DNA of 43,663 nucleotides. It comes from a virus. The first letter of the stretch is position 1. Every line of letters begins with the position of its first letter. The stretch lies in the IMG/VR virus record IMGVR_UViG_3300027747_002230, positions 1-43,663 of that record, one strand, 5' to 3'. Both the position numbers and the translations under genes were made by a program. The notes beneath the pieces were generated by a model, which saw nothing but the letters and a program-made list of their open reading frames with translations, had not been told where the DNA came from and made no database searches. This document shows positions 1,205-43,663 of this stretch, piece by piece.

Positions 1205-4200
1205 TTAGAATGTTCCACCAGAGATTAATCCTGCTTGGAATGTATTTGCGGTTCTTACTGCACCTGTTCCTTTTGGTGTAAGAGTTATGTCAATGTTGGT
1301 ATCAGTTCCTTGCGAGCTAATAGTGGGTTTATTTCCAGTAGCCGCACCCGTCACCTGTACATAGTTAACAGCTGTTTGACCATTACCAGCATCAGCAACA
1401 ACGAATTGTGTGCCATTAGCAGTTTGAATTTTGGTGTTACCAGTACCTTTTGATACTAAAGATATATCAATATTTGGGTCTGAGCCAATAACAGACAAAA
1501 TGGGAGCAACACCAGTTGCTGTACCAGCTACTTGAAAACCATTGACTTGAGAAGTTTGACCAATAGCAGTAAAAGATGGATTACCGTTTGTATAACCTAA
1601 TGTAACAACACCACCCGAATTAATTAATAATCGTGTTGTGCCGTTTGTTTGAAAAGTATACAGACCACTACTTTTTGTATTGAAAGTTAATCCTACGGCA
1701 GCATCACTTCCTTGAGCTGAAATAACCGGAGAAACACCAGTATTTGCACCTTGTACCTGCACATAATTAACAGAATTCTGTCCAGCACCAGCATCAGCAA
1801 CAACAAATTGTGTGCCGTTAGCAGTTTGGATTTTGGTGTTACCAGTACCTTTTGATATTAAATTTATATCTGTGTTTGGATCCGAACCATTAACACCAAT
1901 TACAACACCAGAACCAACAACAGAACCTGTTAGAGTTAAGTAGTTTGCATTTGTCGGTGTATGCAAAACACGAACTTGGTTTGATATGCCGTTTGTTGTA
2001 AATCCTACATAACCAGTACCTTTACTGGTTAAAAGTAAATTGATTGCTGCGTCAGCGCCTTGTGCTGAAATAACTGGAGGACCACCAGCACCACCTGTAA
2101 CTTGTAAATAGTTATTTGCAGAAGTTGTATGTGCTACACGAAATTGTTCTGCTCCGGAAGTACCTGCATTTGTTTGAAATTGAATAGGTACCGCACTTGA
2201 TGTTTGTATTTGCCCCGATGTGGAACCAATTGCTCGTAAAATGGGGGCGGTACTTACTGCAAATGTTTGCCAATAACCACCTCCAGAAGAGCCTGTACCA
2301 GATACAACAAAACCTGTTCCCTCTGGAACAGCAAAAACTAATGAATTACCAAGACTGCGGAGAGTTGGATTTGTTCCAACAGTAGCATAAGCAGTAGCTG
2401 TAACACCAGGTGAACCACCAGTAAATGTCACAGTCGGTTGTTCTACATAACCTGAACCTGCATTTATTATGAAAACGTTATTAACTGCAAAACCAGAAGA
2501 GTTGATTGCTACGTTTGCACCCACACCTGATGTTGATGTGTTACCTGTGAGTATTAGATAATAAGGAACACCTGTATTGAGAGCACCAGTTGAGTTAGCA
2601 AAAGTTGGTAGATTATTATAAAATGCACCTTGATTAATAATAGCAATTGAATTAATACCACCAGTACCATATGTTGTTGCAGTATTACTTGTTACTTGAA
2701 AGACTGCATTTGCAAAAGAACTTCCTGTGTTTGCAAATAAGTAATCTCCGTTAGCGTAACCAGAACCAACGTTACCTATGACAATTGTTCCTGACAATCT
2801 CATTACAGCATTTGCTGTGGCAGTAACACCACCAGCTGTTGTTGGTGCGGTTATCGTTACAGTTGGTATTGATTGGTGTGTACTGCCTGAAGCTGAAATA
2901 GTTATAGCAGTAATTGTATTACCGTTACTGATATTCACACCGCTAGAGCCAGCAGCAAGGTCAATTGCACCTGTGCCTTTTGGTTGAAGTGCTAATGAAA
3001 TATTTGTATCAGAGCCCTGAGCAGACAATATAGGTGAGAACGAAGCAGCAGCCCCAGCTACTTGATAATAATTGCGATCTGTCGTGAGTGGTGCTGCAAT
3101 ACGGAAAGATTTATCCGGACTATTTGCAGTGGAGTTTTTAAATGTCCAACCGCCACCTGTGTCATTTGAATGGAACCATTCAATAGTAGATCCACCACCA
3201 TTGCTAAGTGTGCTGTAGTTATAAATGTATGTTGGATCTGTTAGAGTGTCAAGTTCAAAATACCGCGAAGTACGTGGAAATTTATTAGCTGCACTAACAG
3301 TATAAGTTGGCGCAGCAATATGTAAACCACGCCAAAAAGCGCCGCCGCTTGCATCAGAATTGAGACCACCGGCATTTTGGAATACATATTGACTCGGTGT
3401 TGTTGCATCTCTATTCTTTGTAAACGTTATTGCACCAGCATTTTTACTGTTGATGTTCAAAGGTACATTTGTATCAGAACCTTGAGCAGAGAGTGTTGGA
3501 CCAGCGCCAGTAGTTGCACCAGTAATTTGAACATAGTTAGCGTTATTTAAACCGGTGTTCAATGTACCGTTTATATTAGTGGTCGATGTAGCACCAGATG
3601 TTGCAGAACCAAGTGTAATATTAGTAATTGAACCAGATGCACCATTAGTACCAATATCAATTGACTTTTGTGTTGTGCCGGTAATAGCAGTGTTTGTTGA
3701 TATTGTCTGGGATTGGTTGATCGTGTATGTACCTATACCGCCTGTTGCACCTGTACCTAGAGCAGTAATGTATGTTCCTGGTAACACGCCAGTGCCTGAT
3801 AACGCCATACCAATCGAGAATGTTCCAGTATTAGCATCCCTAACAGTTAATGTTGTGGTTGATATTGTACCGTTTGCGGTTGTTGCAGTCGTTGCAGCTG
3901 TTGTGGCACCAGAACCAATTTGAATAGGCTGAGAAGTTGTTGCTAAACCAACTCTAATTAAACCCGTACCAGATGTACCACCAATTGCAATTGGGCCAGA
4001 TGTTACGGCTGTTCCAAGATTAACGGAATTGGTAGTAGAGCCAGTAAAGTTAAGAGTACCCGTAATTGTTGGGCTGGCAGAAAGTACCATACTGCCACCA
4101 GTACCCGTAACGGTAGCTACCTCAGTAAATCCTACCCTCCACCCAGCAGCAGTATTTACAGTAGTGTCAATACAAGTAAGGTATCCAGTTGCTCCAACAG

Positions 4201-34120: not shown

Positions 34121-34308
34121 CGCTGCGGCATGATAATCTAAAAAATTATTATACCACAAACTTTGCTTTGATGCAGCATCACAAATATAGTTTAACTGAA
34201 TTGGAGTCTATGTTACCTTGGGAAAGAGAGATTTATGTGTCTATGCTTTCCCAATATATTGAAGAAGAAAATGAAAAAATAAAACAAAGAAACGCAGAAC
34301 GTAGATGA
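34117..34308 (+). CDS. Frameshift extension of the gp26-type chaperone (-1 frame, 63 codons)
   Basis: This frame has no ATG at a useful place; the only start-like codon is a GTG at 34117 with no ribosome site. It encodes 'NYYTTNFALMQHHKYSLTEL' and 'MLPWEREIYVSMLSQYIEEE', a conserved segment including the PWERE.Y motif typical of the second part of tail assembly chaperone pairs. It is therefore most likely made only as a -1 frameshift fusion with the upstream 239 residues (total about 304). Its stop overlaps the next ATG (ATGA). Confidence 0.8.
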   Translation: MTLRHDNLKNYYTTNFALMQHHKYSLTELESMLPWEREIYVSMLSQYIEEENEKIKQRNAERR

Positions 34309-36182
34309 CCGACAAAACCAACCCTACTCCAGAAGATGTTATTAATCCCAAATACACTCCTGGTCCCATTCCTCCTGGATTTACTGAAATAAATCTAGTT
34401 AGACCTGGCGTTGCAACGCAGGTTCGCTATGTTCATAGATCACAATTAGAATCTTGGTTGGAAAATGGTTGGAAAAAAGGCAAAGGTGACGGACCTGTTG
34501 CACCTCTAATTGAAAAAATAAAAGAAGAACAAAAACGTGTAAAAGAAACTAAAGTTCGTTCTACAAAACCTCAAAGTGAGGCTGCAGCATCAACACCTGA
34601 ACCTGAAAAACAACCTGAATCTGCACCAGAGCCTGAACAAAAACCCGATAGAGAAAAAACTGCTCAAAGAGGTGAAAAGATAAAGAAAAAGTTTGTACCA
34701 AAAACATTAAGTAATATGTTTGGGAGTGCAAGACCAAAAAATAATGTAAACACAGGTTTGTATTCAGCTATTGCTGCTCCCAATAATCCAAAATTACGTT
34801 CAGGTGATGGTGCTGCAACTATTGCAACTAAAATTTATGCAGTAATGAAAAATGATTTGGACGTAAAAAAAGTAAGAACAGAAATAATCAAAAACTTTGA
34901 AACCGAAAAGTATGAAGGCGAAAAACGTAGACATAATGAGATTATTGCTGAAATAGAAAAGATAAAAAAATCTAAACCAAAAATGCCAGTTCGGGATTTA
35001 AAGACTGGTAGATTTAAAAAAGCAGAAGAGAAAGCACCATCTGCACCTGCACCCACAACTAAAGCTGCACCACCTAAAACTAAAGCACCAGAAGCCAAAG
35101 CTCCAGAAGCCAAAAAAGCACCAGAAGCCAAAAAAGCACCAGAACCTAAGAAAGCACCAGAAGCCAAAGCTCCAGAAGCCAAAAAAGCACCAGAAGCCAA
35201 AAAAGCACCAGAACCTAAGAAAGCACCAGAGGCTAAACCACCAGAGGCTAAACCACCAGAACCCAAGAAAGCACCTGAAGCTAAACCAAAAGAAACTGCA
35301 AAAAAAGAAGAAGCTGCACCACCAACACCAACAGCACCGACGGCAACAAAACCGCCGCCTGCTGTACCAAAAGGTGCAGCCACAGCCGCAAAGGTAGCTA
35401 TAGGTGGAGCAAAAGGTGCTGTTGCAGCTGCATTACTTGCCGCAGGTTTCTCAAAGGCTGCACAAGCTAACATCATGGCGAATGTAGATGAAGAAAGTAA
35501 ATTTAAACCAAGAAGTGAAGAACTTGAAAAATATTCAGCTAAAACTTTGTTTAAGATGTATGGACCTCCCGGTGTTGATGGTGGTCAACCAGCAGGCGGA
35601 AAAAATAAAGTTAGATTCCAATCAATTTCTGAAGCTCAAAGCCTTGTTGCAAAAGGACCTGAAGCGGTTGGTGATGTAATCTATGGTGGTAGAATGGGTA
35701 ACTCTGAGCCAGGTGATGGATACAAATATAGGGGCCGTGGTTATATTCAATTGACAGGTAAAGATGCTTATAAAGCAATCGGAGATAAAATTGGTGTTGA
35801 CTTACTCAAAAATCCAGATTTAGCTAATGATCCAGATGTAGCAGCAAAAATTGTTCCTGCTTTCTTTCAAATGAAATTGGGTAAAAATAAACCTTCAGAA
35901 TTGGATGACATTGATAAAGTTAACAAAATTGTTGGTTCTGCAAGTGAAGAATCTAAAAATAAAAGAAAACAACTAGCATCACAATACATGAGTGAAGGTG
36001 ATTCTGGTGGCGATCAGTTAAATAAATCATCTGTTGAAAATGCAGACCAAAAGAAAGCAATGCAGAAAGGTGGAACTACAATTGTTGATGCTTCGACAAC
36101 TGTTAATGGTGCACCTGCAAGTAAGCCACAGAAAATTGAAGTACCAACAGATTCAGATAAACCAGCACATACAAAAAAATAA
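34305..36182 (+). CDS. Tail-associated GH19-type lysozyme with Ala/Lys/Pro linker (625 aa)
   Basis: Residues 1-75 form a small domain ('LVRPGVATQVRYVHRSQLES'). Residues about 75-375 are charged and low-complexity, with a run of EAKKAP/EPKKAP repeats at about 260-330. From about residue 375 a glycoside hydrolase 19 (chitinase-like) domain follows: 'AGFSKAAQANIMANVDEESK' with the likely catalytic Glu at 396/397, then 'MGNSEPGDGYKYRGRGYIQL' and 'DLLKNPDLANDPDVAAKI'. This is the architecture of phage muramidases, suggesting local peptidoglycan cleavage during DNA entry. It sits between the tail chaperone and the tape measure candidate, and the gp5 spike here lacks a lysozyme domain, so it may be its functional substitute. 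The ATG overlaps the previous stop. Confidence 0.8.
   Translation: MTDKTNPTPEDVINPKYTPGPIPPGFTEINLVRPGVATQVRYVHRSQLESWLENGWKKGKGDGPVAPLIEKIKEEQKRVKETKVRSTKPQSEAAASTPEPEKQPESAPEPEQKPDREKTAQRGEKIKKKFVPKTLSNMFGSARPKNNVNTGLYSAIAAPNNPKLRSGDGAATIATKIYAVMKNDLDVKKVRTEIIKNFETEKYEGEKRRHNEIIAEIEKIKKSKPKMPVRDLKTGRFKKAEEKAPSAPAPTTKAAPPKTKAPEAKAPEAKKAPEAKKAPEPKKAPEAKAPEAKKAPEAKKAPEPKKAPEAKPPEAKPPEPKKAPEAKPKETAKKEEAAPPTPTAPTATKPPPAVPKGAATAAKVAIGGAKGAVAAALLAAGFSKAAQANIMANVDEESKFKPRSEELEKYSAKTLFKMYGPPGVDGGQPAGGKNKVRFQSISEAQSLVAKGPEAVGDVIYGGRMGNSEPGDGYKYRGRGYIQLTGKDAYKAIGDKIGVDLLKNPDLANDPDVAAKIVPAFFQMKLGKNKPSELDDIDKVNKIVGSASEESKNKRKQLASQYMSEGDSGGDQLNKSSVENADQKKAMQKGGTTIVDASTTVNGAPASKPQKIEVPTDSDKPAHTKK
35091..35228 (+). 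repeat. Perfect 69-bp tandem duplication in the lysozyme linker
   Basis: The 69 bases 35091-35159 are repeated identically at 35160-35228. Each unit encodes 23 residues of the EAKAPEAKKAPEAKKAPEPK-type linker, itself made of smaller degenerate units. The identity points to a very recent duplication, or to an assembly-sensitive region. Confidence 0.92.
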
Positions 36183-40952: not shown

Positions 40953-40979
40953 AGTAAAAGTAGTTTTTACTTATTTATG
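40953..40979 (-). promoter_or_regulatory. CATAAATA late-type box plus hairpin before the 183-aa gene
   Basis: The minus strand has CATAAATA at 40979-40972, overlapping the gp59 stop, and next to it a 7-bp inverted repeat AGTAAAA / TTTTACT with a 5-base loop (40953-40971). The hairpin ends three bases before the ATG at 40949 and would hide the initiation region. No U tract follows, so termination is unlikely. Confidence 0.4.
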
Positions 40980-41583
40980 CGTGTTCAGATATTGCCTCTT
41001 TGAGTATACTTTTAAACTTTACCTTATCGTACTGTACAAACGGTTTATACTTTTCAAGTTTCATTTTCCAATTTGGCCAAATGATATCTTCAGATATTTT
41101 TTTATCCCACATCGGAAAGAAATTCATTATGTCATTCAATATAATTAAAGTTTCAATACAAATATCATTCTGCATTGCACCGAGTAACAAATCAGGATGA
41201 CCGCCAGATGGTACTTTTATCAAGTCATCAGGTTTATCGGCCTGTTCCAAGATACGTGCTATATCAGTTTCAAAACGATATGTTAAACTCTGATTAATCT
41301 TCTGCCACTTTTTATACACCTCTTCGCCATTTGGGCCAGTCATTTCACCCACCCATGATGAATCACCATAAACAAAGTTTGCAATGTAGAAGTTTTTAAG
41401 TTCTTCCATTGAATACTTGCGTGACAGTTTATAGAAACTATACTTGGACTTGTTTCTTAAAAAAGAATCTTGTGATACATTTGTTTTACCACCATACTTT
41501 ATGAAATCATATGATGTAGAGGTAAAATGCAACTTCAAAGCTGAATATAGTTTATATGCTTCAAAACCTGTTGTTTCATTCAT
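40975..41583 (-). CDS. 59: Replicative helicase loader gp59
   Basis: The N-terminal half reads 'TGFEAYKLYSALKLHFTSTS', 'YDFIKYGGKTNVSQDSFLRN' and 'SKYSFYKLSRKYSMEELKNF', the signature of T4-type gp59. Further on, 'ANFVYGDSSWVGEM' and 'YKKWQKINQSLTYRFETDI' also fit. gp59 binds fork DNA and gp32 and loads the gp41 helicase. Length 202 residues (T4: 217). It lies just after gp33, and gp32 follows three genes later, so the T4 order 33-59-32 is kept with insertions. The ATG is close to the gp33 stop; no good ribosome site is visible, suggesting coupling. Confidence 0.92.
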   Translation of the reverse strand: MNETTGFEAYKLYSALKLHFTSTSYDFIKYGGKTNVSQDSFLRNKSKYSFYKLSRKYSMEELKNFYIANFVYGDSSWVGEMTGPNGEEVYKKWQKINQSLTYRFETDIARILEQADKPDDLIKVPSGGHPDLLLGAMQNDICIETLIILNDIMNFFPMWDKKISEDIIWPNWKMKLEKYKPFVQYDKVKFKSILKEAISEHA

Positions 41584-41585
41584 AT

Positions 41586-41807
41586 TTAAATTGGCAGACT
41601 GCTAACTCTTTTAATAAGTGAAAGTGATTGTGCTTCTTCATGTATACGAGCCTTGAGTGATGAGGATATAAGTGTTGCTGCTACCTCGATCTCAAGTCCT
41701 GTTTCATTACAGTAATCTATAATAGCATCAATACAATTCACCCTATGCTCATTGGCAAGTTTAATTACATTTGTACTAAATTCAGATATTTCATCACGGG
41801 TTGGCAT
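41586..41807 (-). CDS. 33: Late transcription co-activator gp33
   Basis: The 73 residues contain 'MPTRDEISEFSTNVIKLANE', 'IDAIIDYCNETGLEIEVAAT' and the C-terminal 'SLIKRVSSLPI'. This is the short gp33 form of marine T4-like phages (T4: 112 residues). gp33 binds the beta flap of host RNA polymerase and links it to the sliding clamp at late promoters read by gp55. The GGAG ribosome site is well placed and a sigma70-type promoter precedes it. Position next to gp59 supports the call. Late boxes of the NATAAATA kind in this window are the expected targets. Confidence 0.82.
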   Translation of the reverse strand: MPTRDEISEFSTNVIKLANEHRVNCIDAIIDYCNETGLEIEVAATLISSSLKARIHEEAQSLSLIKRVSSLPI

Positions 41808-41831: not shown

Positions 41832-41860
41832 ATCTTAACATAAAGATAATAGATTGTCAA
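41832..41860 (-). promoter_or_regulatory. Sigma70-type promoter (TTGACA-17-TAAGAT) for gp33-gp59
   Basis: TTGACA (41860-41855) and TAAGAT (41837-41832) are 17 bases apart on the minus strand, with a TG before the -10. Transcription would start about 41825, leaving a short leader with the GGAG site of gp33. The -35 overlaps the TGA stop of the upstream lysin gene. Confidence 0.75.
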
Positions 41861-42330
41861 GCATCATCTGTATAAAATATATGTTTACCAATCTTCACCA
41901 GTTTTCTATATTTCCATTTTGGATGTACATAGTCTGCATGATAGAATAACGCATTTGATTCTGCAAGTTCTTGGTGACTTACATTATTCTCAATCGCATC
42001 ATGTGCAACAGTAAAACTTCTTTGCCACATAGGAAAGTTTGTTATGGTTTTATCTTCACCAACCCAACTGAATTGATATTTCTTACCTTTATGCTGATAC
42101 ACAATAGAACATATATCTTTTGGGTAACGTGGGTCATTTAACCGATTCAATACAACCTGAGATACTGCACGTTTACCTTCATCAGATTCAATACCTGCTT
42201 CGTGGTAAATGTTTCTCGCCATGCATAGTACGTCATCATTCAATTGTGGTACTTGCTTGTGGTGAATTGTAGGCCATAAAATAAAAAGTGAAAGAAATAC
42301 TATCAATAACGAAATTGATTTTTTAGGCAT
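41857..42330 (-). CDS. SleB-type cell wall hydrolase with N-terminal membrane anchor (probable SAR-like endolysin)
   Basis: Residues 5-22 (SISLLIVFLSLFILWPTI) form a hydrophobic segment after a basic MPKK, a signal-anchor without obvious cleavage site. The rest is the Hydrolase_2/SleB domain: 'LCMARNIYHEAGIESDEGKR' with the likely catalytic Glu44, 'AVSQVVLNRLNDPRYPKDIC', 'KYQFSWVGEDKT' and 'SNALFYHADYVHPKW'. The family cleaves peptidoglycan glycan strands. In phages with a signal-anchor-release mechanism the enzyme is exported by the host Sec system and activated when released. No holin gene is seen next to it. It lies just downstream of the tmRNA gene and may be co-transcribed. The ribosome site is weak. 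Confidence 0.82.
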   Translation of the reverse strand: MPKKSISLLIVFLSLFILWPTIHHKQVPQLNDDVLCMARNIYHEAGIESDEGKRAVSQVVLNRLNDPRYPKDICSIVYQHKGKKYQFSWVGEDKTITNFPMWQRSFTVAHDAIENNVSHQELAESNALFYHADYVHPKWKYRKLVKIGKHIFYTDDA

Positions 42331-42364
42331 TAGGATTATTTGGAGTTTAGAAAGTGGCAGGTTA

Positions 42365-42680
42365 TTCTGTTACGAGGAAACCCACCGAAACCCTAGGTGC
42401 CTTTAATTAGGCAGCCAATGCGTAAACTTCTTGGTTTGCGGCTATTTTGATTTACTTTTAGCGACTATCTGTGTCGAGTTGTCCATGCGTCTACTTGTTA
42501 CCCAATCGATTACCAGAGCAGGCCCATCAAAAACATACTAAGGTATATTAAGTCTTACATGTAGAGGACTGGGATACCAAACCTGATCTTTTTACAGATT
42601 CTAATATGTTTATGGTGGACCTGGCCGGATTTGAACCGGCGTCTTGAATACTTTTGGATTTACTTCATACAACCATAACT
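42365..42680 (-). ncRNA. ssrA: Circularly permuted (two-piece) tmRNA
   Basis: Read on the minus strand from a predicted start near 42678, the acceptor piece comes first. It holds a T arm (GCCGG-TTCAAAT-CCGGC, 42640-42624), the acceptor 3' strand CAGGTCC, discriminator A and encoded CCA (42615-42613). After an 87-base intervening segment (42612-42526), whose ends can pair as AAACATA/TATGTTT, the coding piece begins with GGGCCTG (42525-42519). This pairs with CAGGTCC over 7 bp, including G3-U70, the alanine identity pair. A 'CTGGTAATCGATTGGG' D-like segment, a CGAC/GTCG pseudoknot-1 stem (42476-42462) and the tag frame follow. tmRNA rescues stalled ribosomes and tags the unfinished proteins. 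The 3' limit is approximate. No SmpB gene is seen here. Confidence 0.93.
42407..42439 (-). other. tmRNA tag reading frame (ANQEVYALAA-stop)
   Basis: From the resume codon GCA at 42439 the frame reads A-N-Q-E-V-Y-A-L-A-A and stops at TAA (42409-42407). The bases just before it (ATAGCC) match the conserved A/TAGTC-type context of the tmRNA resume site. The LAA end is the classical signal for ClpXP-type proteases. The E. coli tag is ANDENYALAA, so the C-terminal YALAA is identical. Confidence 0.93.
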
Positions 42681-42683
42681 CAC

Positions 42684-42712
42684 ACTATAACACAGAATTG
42701 CTTCTATGTCAA
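42684..42712 (-). promoter_or_regulatory. Sigma70-type promoter (TTGACA-17-TATAGT) of the tmRNA gene
   Basis: TTGACA (42712-42707) and TATAGT (42689-42684) are 17 bases apart on the minus strand, pointing into the tmRNA. The -35 overlaps the TGA stop of the nuclease gene. The same 'GCTTGACA' stop/promoter junction occurs before gp33. Confidence 0.85.
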
Positions 42713-43362
42713 GCGTTATCTTTGTAGAATTGAATGTACTCTAAAAGAGTATTTAGGTGATCTTGCGTTTTCTCAATGAAAAGTAGAGGCTCAGAATTCT
42801 CCACAGCCATAACCACCACGATCTGGTCAATACCATTACCAATCAGTTCTTCGTACATACAAGCATATGCAACACATTGAGCAAAGTAAGAATCAATCTC
42901 ATCTTTTTTCTTGATGCGTTTAGAGGTCTTGAAGTCAATGACGGATAAAACACCATCAAATTCTGCAATACAATCTACACGACCAGCCAAACCTAGCTTG
43001 ACAGACCACAATGCACACTCTTGATAATGAATGTTGTTAATACGATTCAATATCGGTTTCAATGACTGGAACATCTCCAGAGCATCAGGCATGATTTTAC
43101 CTAATGGTTCATTGTTCAGATATCTTTCACACAAGGTATGTACGTTGGTGCCTCTAGATGACGCTTGCTTAGAGATACGATTTGCTTCTTCAGCACCAAC
43201 ACGCTTACGCCATTCCATAATGGCTTTCTTACCTTTTGCACCAATGACTGTGGTCACAGATGGTAAACGATTACCTTCTGGTGTGGTATAATACCGTTTA
43301 CCATCGGGAAATGTTTCCGATTTTAAGTCAGCAAGGACTTTTGGCGGGCAATAATTAAACAT
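42709..43362 (-). CDS. PD-(D/E)XK (RecB/Cas4-like) exonuclease (217 aa)
   Basis: The start is the ATG at 43362 (TGATG overlap with the upstream PhoH stop). The sequence 'LPSVTTVIGAKGKKAIMEWR' and 'ASSRGTNVHTLCERYLN' (H75), then E115 in 'HYQECALWS', D130 in 'LAGRVDCIAEFDG', and D143/K145 in 'LSVIDFKTSKR' form the core of a PD-(D/E)XK nuclease. T4-like cyanophages and relatives carry such exonucleases near replication genes. Probable roles are DNA repair, recombination or breakdown of host DNA; the specific role is not known. It has no Cys cluster for an iron-sulphur centre, unlike Cas4 or AddB. Confidence 0.85.
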   Translation of the reverse strand: MFNYCPPKVLADLKSETFPDGKRYYTTPEGNRLPSVTTVIGAKGKKAIMEWRKRVGAEEANRISKQASSRGTNVHTLCERYLNNEPLGKIMPDALEMFQSLKPILNRINNIHYQECALWSVKLGLAGRVDCIAEFDGVLSVIDFKTSKRIKKKDEIDSYFAQCVAYACMYEELIGNGIDQIVVVMAVENSEPLLFIEKTQDHLNTLLEYIQFYKDNA

Positions 43363-43663
43363 CAAAATCCCATCTTATCACAAGCCACAATCCATGACTT
43401 AACTAAACTACTACGAACAATATCATCTGGTGTAAATGATATCTCACTAAACTCATCCATATGTCTTGCAACATTCAAAAATTCAGATAGACCCGATACA
43501 TCGTTTCTACTCTTAATCAAATCATTCTGTTTCAAGTCACCAATAAACATAATCTTAGAACGATGACCAACACGAGACATAACCGAACTCAATTCGTGAA
43601 ATGTCATCGACTGACATTCATCTACAATAATGATTGAGTTATCAATAGAAATACCACGTATGG
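43362..43663 (-). CDS. phoH: PhoH-like ATPase, C-terminal part (cut by window edge)
   Basis: The open frame enters from the right edge and ends with the TGA at 43362-43364. It contains a Walker B segment, 'NSIIIVDECQSMTFHELSSV', followed by 'GHRSKIMFIGDLKQND' and 'DIVRSSLVKSWIVACDKMGF'. This is the order found in PhoH-family P-loop ATPases: Walker B, then a sensor-like GD..Q motif (usually GD..Q.D). The Walker A part lies outside the window. PhoH genes are frequent in marine and freshwater phages; their function, perhaps RNA-related or phosphate-linked, is unsettled. It is coupled to the nuclease gene through the stop/start overlap. Confidence 0.8.
   Translation of the reverse strand, partial: IRGISIDNSIIIVDECQSMTFHELSSVMSRVGHRSKIMFIGDLKQNDLIKSRNDVSGLSEFLNVARHMDEFSEISFTPDDIVRSSLVKSWIVACDKMGF

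Follow-up and report, generated by a model that had tools for sequence, protein, structure and literature searches.

Two-piece tmRNAs are already known from bacteriophages. One was reported in 2022 in the phage Melnitz, in a study in which 53 of 133 unique phage tmRNA structures were of the two-piece form, 50 of these 53 originating from marine or aquatic phages, and in which ribosome maintenance or degradation of host proteins was proposed as the role (PMC9004378). The permuted family RF04321 has likewise been described, with 79 phage tmRNA sequences counted (PMC11915505). No functional assay of a phage two-piece tmRNA was found.

The closest described systems are those of two isolates, Pelagibacter phage Mosig and Methylophilales phage Melnitz (hosts SAR11 and OM43), whose published tmRNAs lie between the same genes as the one analysed here. 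In the T4-like phage Melnitz (MZ577097, gene 86) the permuted tmRNA is found on the same strand between a PD-(D/E)XK nuclease and gp33-gp59, with phoH beyond; unlike our locus, it matches the alpha_tmRNA model (106.7 bits) and adjoins a glutamine riboswitch, whereas ours is of the beta_tmRNA type and has no riboswitch. The permuted SsrA of Mosig (MT647606), placed between the exonuclease and gp33, also differs in being of the alpha type and in its tag, GEDNFALAA. Stenotrophomonas phages (Menderavirus, e.g. Yut2, PV130723) encode a permuted tmRNA above the beta_tmRNA cut-off, but it resides in a tRNA cluster near ribonucleotide reductase and carries the tag VAANDDSYTVRIAA. Finally, the two-piece tmRNAs of betaproteobacteria (RF01850) share with our locus the gene order, the structure and the tag form ANDExFALAA, the promoter region lying inside the model match; most bacterial copies nevertheless fall outside a clade holding 67 of 70 phage copies in a rooted tree, although AU tests permit other groupings.

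The novelty implied by the original prediction is therefore low, a phage two-piece tmRNA having been published in 2022 (PMC9004378) and two isolates having the same gene neighbourhood. The locus described below is a well-supported new example of a described system and no new kind. In the slot where alpha-type phage tmRNAs were known, it represents a betaproteobacterial-type case, a sound confirmation rather than a surprise. New are the beta-type gene where Melnitz and Mosig have an alpha-type one, and a tag with Q at position 3 that is unmatched in the other viral contigs and the bacterial genomes searched; the beta type in this slot and the share of relatives with such a gene count as modest additions.

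The analysed DNA (IMG/VR record IMGVR_UViG_3300027747_002230, hereafter the window) is a linear fragment of 43,663 bp, which carries on its minus strand, at about 42349-42690, a circularly permuted tmRNA gene recognized by ARAGORN and two Rfam models. ARAGORN and a covariance search were the checks proposed with the original prediction. The former calls a permuted tmRNA* at 42316-42705 (minus strand) with the tag ANQEVYALAA*. In the latter, both Rfam models match above their curated cut-offs: tmRNA_permuted (RF04321) at 42407-42674 (minus strand; 106.2 bits, E 7e-20, cut-off 47 bits), with the full model (1-213) covered, and beta_tmRNA (RF01850) at 42349-42726 (minus strand; 87.9 bits, E 3e-25), the top of the tmRNA clan but near its cut-off of 84 bits. 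The features of the locus, in the direction of transcription of the minus strand, are as follows.

42709-43365, minus strand: PD-(D/E)XK exonuclease, upstream neighbour (phrog_298, E 6e-75)
42684-42712, minus strand: sigma70-type promoter-like sequence with a TG-extended -10, 11/12 match
42712-42707 and 42689-42684, minus strand: its -35 TTGACA and -10 TATAGT, separated by a 17-nt spacer (sequence reading)
42613-42674, minus strand: acceptor RNA piece, with P2 strands, T arm, acceptor 3' strand and CCA (RF04321, ARAGORN; kept in 27 homologues)
42640-42624, minus strand: T arm (sequence reading)
42623-42617, minus strand: acceptor 3' strand CAGGUCC, followed by discriminator A (sequence reading)
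42615-42613, minus strand: encoded CCA (sequence reading)
42526-42612, minus strand: intervening (removed) segment, 87 nt (homologue comparison)
42407-42525, minus strand: coding RNA piece as far as the tag stop, including the D-loop region (RF04321 match; alignment of homologues)
42525-42519, minus strand: acceptor 5' strand GGGCCUG, carrying G3; G3-U70 present (sequence reading)
42505-42499 and 42482-42478, minus strand: P2 partner strands (RF04321 match, homologue alignment)
42407-42439, minus strand: tag frame GCA AAC CAA GAA GTT TAC GCA TTG GCT GCC TAA, ANQEVYALAA and stop (ARAGORN)
42349-42406, minus strand: 3' domain of the coding RNA (within the RF01850 match)
42386-42379 and 42363-42356, minus strand: 3'-domain hairpin GGUGGGUU / AACCUGCC (sequence reading; L002 and L016 have a hairpin at the same position)
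41857-42330, minus strand: endolysin, downstream neighbour (phrog_938, E 4e-18)
41586-41807, minus strand: gp33-like late promoter transcription regulator (phrog_254)
40975-41583, minus strand: gp59-like helicase loader (phrog_269)

The order is the permuted one, the 3' tRNA half with its encoded CCA standing ahead of the 5' half, and the in-frame proteolysis tag ends in AA followed by a stop. The gene had been predicted to be a phage-encoded, permuted tmRNA with a promoter-like sequence and a complete tag, in a T4-like phage beside a lysin gene, and all testable parts of this description are borne out; the T arm, the encoded CCA, the 7-bp acceptor stem and the G3-U70 pair can each be read in the sequence. 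It is a real, intact two-piece tmRNA gene. A covariance match is present, and related phages conserve both the acceptor strands and the tag, so the gene is not a product of chance.

It is established for trans-translation that host factors carry out alanylation, delivery, tagging and proteolysis. We estimate at roughly 85% the probability that the window, from a T4-like phage, contains an ssrA gene of the permuted betaproteobacterial type that is intact, is maintained by selection and rescues ribosomes together with host factors. We infer transcription, processing, charging, tagging and a benefit to the phage along the following lines. The sigma70-type promoter, situated within the final part of the exonuclease gene, would drive a precursor, from which host tRNA-processing enzymes would cut out the intervening segment, leaving two RNAs joined by the acceptor stem and P2 helices. 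Charged by the host AlaRS via G3-U70, the molecule would be delivered by the host SmpB and EF-Tu to ribosomes stalled on broken mRNA, which would switch to the ANQEVYALAA frame and terminate at UAA, the tagged product being removed by host proteases (ClpXP type). The most likely gain for the phage would be extra ribosome rescue while mRNA is cut up during infection. The original prediction had proposed ribosome recycling while host mRNA decays, or degradation redirected by a phage-specific tag. The question of what a lytic phage gains from a tmRNA of its own can be put to the test in cultured relatives, for instance Melnitz or a phage of Stenotrophomonas.

A search for SmpB (PF01668) in the window and 15 further phage records, of which several are fragments, gave no match, whereas RF04321 matched in each of the 16; the RNA, if working, would therefore have to act with the host SmpB. 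A different use of this protein would be that of an interfering decoy: the phage tmRNA might bind the host SmpB and block or alter host trans-translation, as has been reported of the RNA of mycobacteriophage DS6A, which consists of a tRNA-like domain only. Phage RNAs of that kind do inhibit the host tmRNA (PMC11915505, PMC4131195), and the D-loop motif of the window departs from the consensus GGUUUCGAC (also given as GGUUUCGACA), being changed to GGUAAUCGAU. We regard this explanation as very unlikely, because the tag frame, stop, resume region and 3' domain, all needless for a decoy, are intact in the window and in dozens of relatives. For the ribosome-rescuing tmRNA that we favour, the altered D-loop motif might lower activity. 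Together with the RF04321 score of the window (106 bits), which is below that of most relatives (118-150 for several), it makes reduced activity possible. The folding energy of the whole precursor is not exceptional (z -1.33), a value that says little for a pseudoknotted RNA.

The intervening segment differs among homologues both in length (28-171 nt) and in sequence; in the window it folds into a long hairpin extending the acceptor stem. In L016 (tmRNA at 3661-4054) this segment holds a T-arm-like GGTTCGATTCC stretch, perhaps a tRNA remnant or a duplication.

Conservation of the structure was examined in relatives gathered via the neighbouring exonuclease (80 viral contigs) and via the tag form. 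The covariation alignment comprised 27 distinct phage sequences and 19 predicted pairs in the acceptor stem, T stem and inner P2 helix. Standard pairs occupy 99.8% of 513 cells (shuffles 85.5%, slid controls 48-63%). Two-sided changes are seen in 13 of the 19 pairs, and covariation scores 0.401, as compared with 0.128 in shuffles. All seven acceptor-stem pairs are formed in the window and paired in every one of the 27 sequences, with compensatory changes at 3 positions, a result that is slightly favoured because the input segments for the alignment, itself built blind to structure, were cut using acceptor complementarity and a TCGA motif; those for the T stem and P2 are unaffected. The alanine identity pair G3-U70 is invariant (27/27). 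The inner P2 helix of the window is UUCAA/UUGGG, as against UUCUG/CAGGG in most relatives, i.e. a compensated two-base change (CAA/UUG for CUG/CAG) common to L007, and the outer P2 helix of the L002 group has GATAG/CTATC in place of GTTGT/ACAAC. Such pairing and compensated helices are signs of an RNA maintained under selection. The original prediction had named unconserved acceptor strands and tag as one outcome that would count against it; in related phages both are kept, with compensatory changes.

The position of the gene is conserved as well. In the window, as in many relatives, the genes follow the order phoH - exonuclease - [tmRNA] - lysin - gp33 - gp59 - gp32 on one strand. Of the 80 exonuclease contigs, 36 have a tmRNA on the exonuclease strand, downstream of that gene by no more than about 3 kb, and these 36 homologues have in-frame tags of the same form. 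Counted anywhere in the contig, permuted tmRNAs above the cut-off are present in 51/80 contigs with a related exonuclease (8/8, 23/40 and 20/32), many of the negative ones being short fragments. In one branch of T4-like phages, as sampled by the neighbouring gene (51/80), permuted tmRNAs are thus common rather than rare. Searched by tblastn against the phage collection, neither the exonuclease nor the ORF at 34305-36182 yielded a relative at >=60% identity. One contig of 235,812 bp (G007, the contig of L058) contains two separate permuted tmRNAs over the Rfam cut-off (143658-143932 and 172862-173101).

The promoter-like sequence, which overlaps the end of the exonuclease gene, also recurs: of 78 permuted tmRNAs examined, 27 have a sigma70-like promoter of at least 10/12 matches ahead of the acceptor RNA piece. 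In most of these the spacer measures 17 nt and the -10 occupies nearly the same position, and several match at 12/12. A second promoter-like sequence in the window, TTGACA-17-TAAGAT (10/12; 41860-41832, minus strand), is located just upstream of the gp33-like gene.

These data bear on the idea that the locus is what is left of a host ssrA acquired by chance (e.g. through an integrating element), now decaying and without present function. The ssrA gene is indeed a common integration site, and the window copy has diverged beyond its relatives (end branch 0.27-0.28 vs a median of about 0.05). All parts are intact, however, with compensatory base changes, the location is conserved across many phages and the promoter is kept; moreover, no close host tmRNA was found, the best match among 274 genomes sampled from the class of Cupriavidus being a partial one of 71% over 126 nt. 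The covariation already largely refutes such a remnant, which we consider highly improbable. Assignment of a host by the nearest tmRNA fails, since these genomes offer only 71% partial matches.

The tags of relatives mostly have the form AND[ES]x[FY]ALAA, and that of the window has Q for D at position 3. The residues Q-E-V had been taken to stand in place of host residues. This holds for Q, which is unusual, but not for E, which belongs to the general consensus ANDExFALAA, or for V, which is present in the phage tags ANDEVFALAA and ANEEVYALAA. Exact codon-degenerate searches with a TAA or TGA stop found ANQEV[FY]ALAA in no other contig among 2.9 million viral contigs and AN[QE]EVYALAA in none of 84,980 bacterial and archaeal species genomes. 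That the altered tag sends host or phage proteins to a different fate, as a phage-specific function, is most improbable: its form is matched in no other viral contig or bacterial or archaeal genome searched and RIAA or LMAA ends occur in some tags of related phages, but the window tag retains the C-terminal ALAA, the ordinary protease signal, and so shows no sign of redirected degradation, and its codon 3 (CAA) is a single base from the GAA of L117 (ANEEVYALAA), so drift suffices.

Several phage tags have unusual ends other than ALAA, namely ANDEKFRIAA (L003/L004), ANDESAYLMAA (L005), ANDESYRIAA (L007), VAANDDSYTVRIAA (L202) and ANDSAYRLAA (L243). For L113, L168 and L195, ARAGORN predicts 26-residue tags (ANVSTFKFWQSPVSVAANDEAFALAA and a close variant of it); the tag is extended in these cases, or else the resume codon has been placed wrongly.

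The beta model is the best of the tmRNA clan for the window and for 11 of 12 loci scanned, the twelfth, Mosig, being of the alpha type. Given these beta-type loci and the alpha-type Mosig and Melnitz, tmRNAs of two bacterial lineages occupy this slot in different phages. When the tree is rooted on one-piece Burkholderiales tmRNAs, 67 of the 70 phage copies share a single supported clade (100/99) that also takes in the extra Cupriavidus copies and is separate from most bacterial ones; the remaining phage copies (L112, L117, L140) and most bacterial two-piece genes are placed near the root. With an alignment of only 185 columns, and with AU tests that are compatible with host monophyly (p 0.125) as well as phage monophyly (p 0.129), this grouping is a lead, not a result. 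In the unrooted tree, bacterial copies form three clusters among the phages. Derivation of the bacterial two-piece form from phages was considered as well; we claim no direction, as rooting moved most bacterial copies near the base and the AU tests were non-rejecting.

It is a tentative and rather doubtful proposition that T4-like phages have long carried a phage-specific lineage of beta-type two-piece tmRNA in a fixed slot (marine relatives having the alpha type) and returned it to bacteria, of which the extra copies on chromosomes and plasmids of Cupriavidus would be a sign; if true, phages would be a reservoir spreading the permuted gene form. Among sampled genomes, the beta permuted form scores above the cut-off in 3 of 60 of the order, 7 of 81 of one family and 16 of 19 of one genus. 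None of the seven ORFs scanned around the Cupriavidus copy L229 matched a phage or integrase family. Cupriavidus pinatubonensis HN-2 (G086) has five permuted copies above the cut-off (L204, L218, L225, L229, L245), distributed over two chromosomes and a plasmid; four, with the tag ANDEKFALAA, lie inside the phage clade, and one, with ANDERFALAA, groups with bacterial genes.
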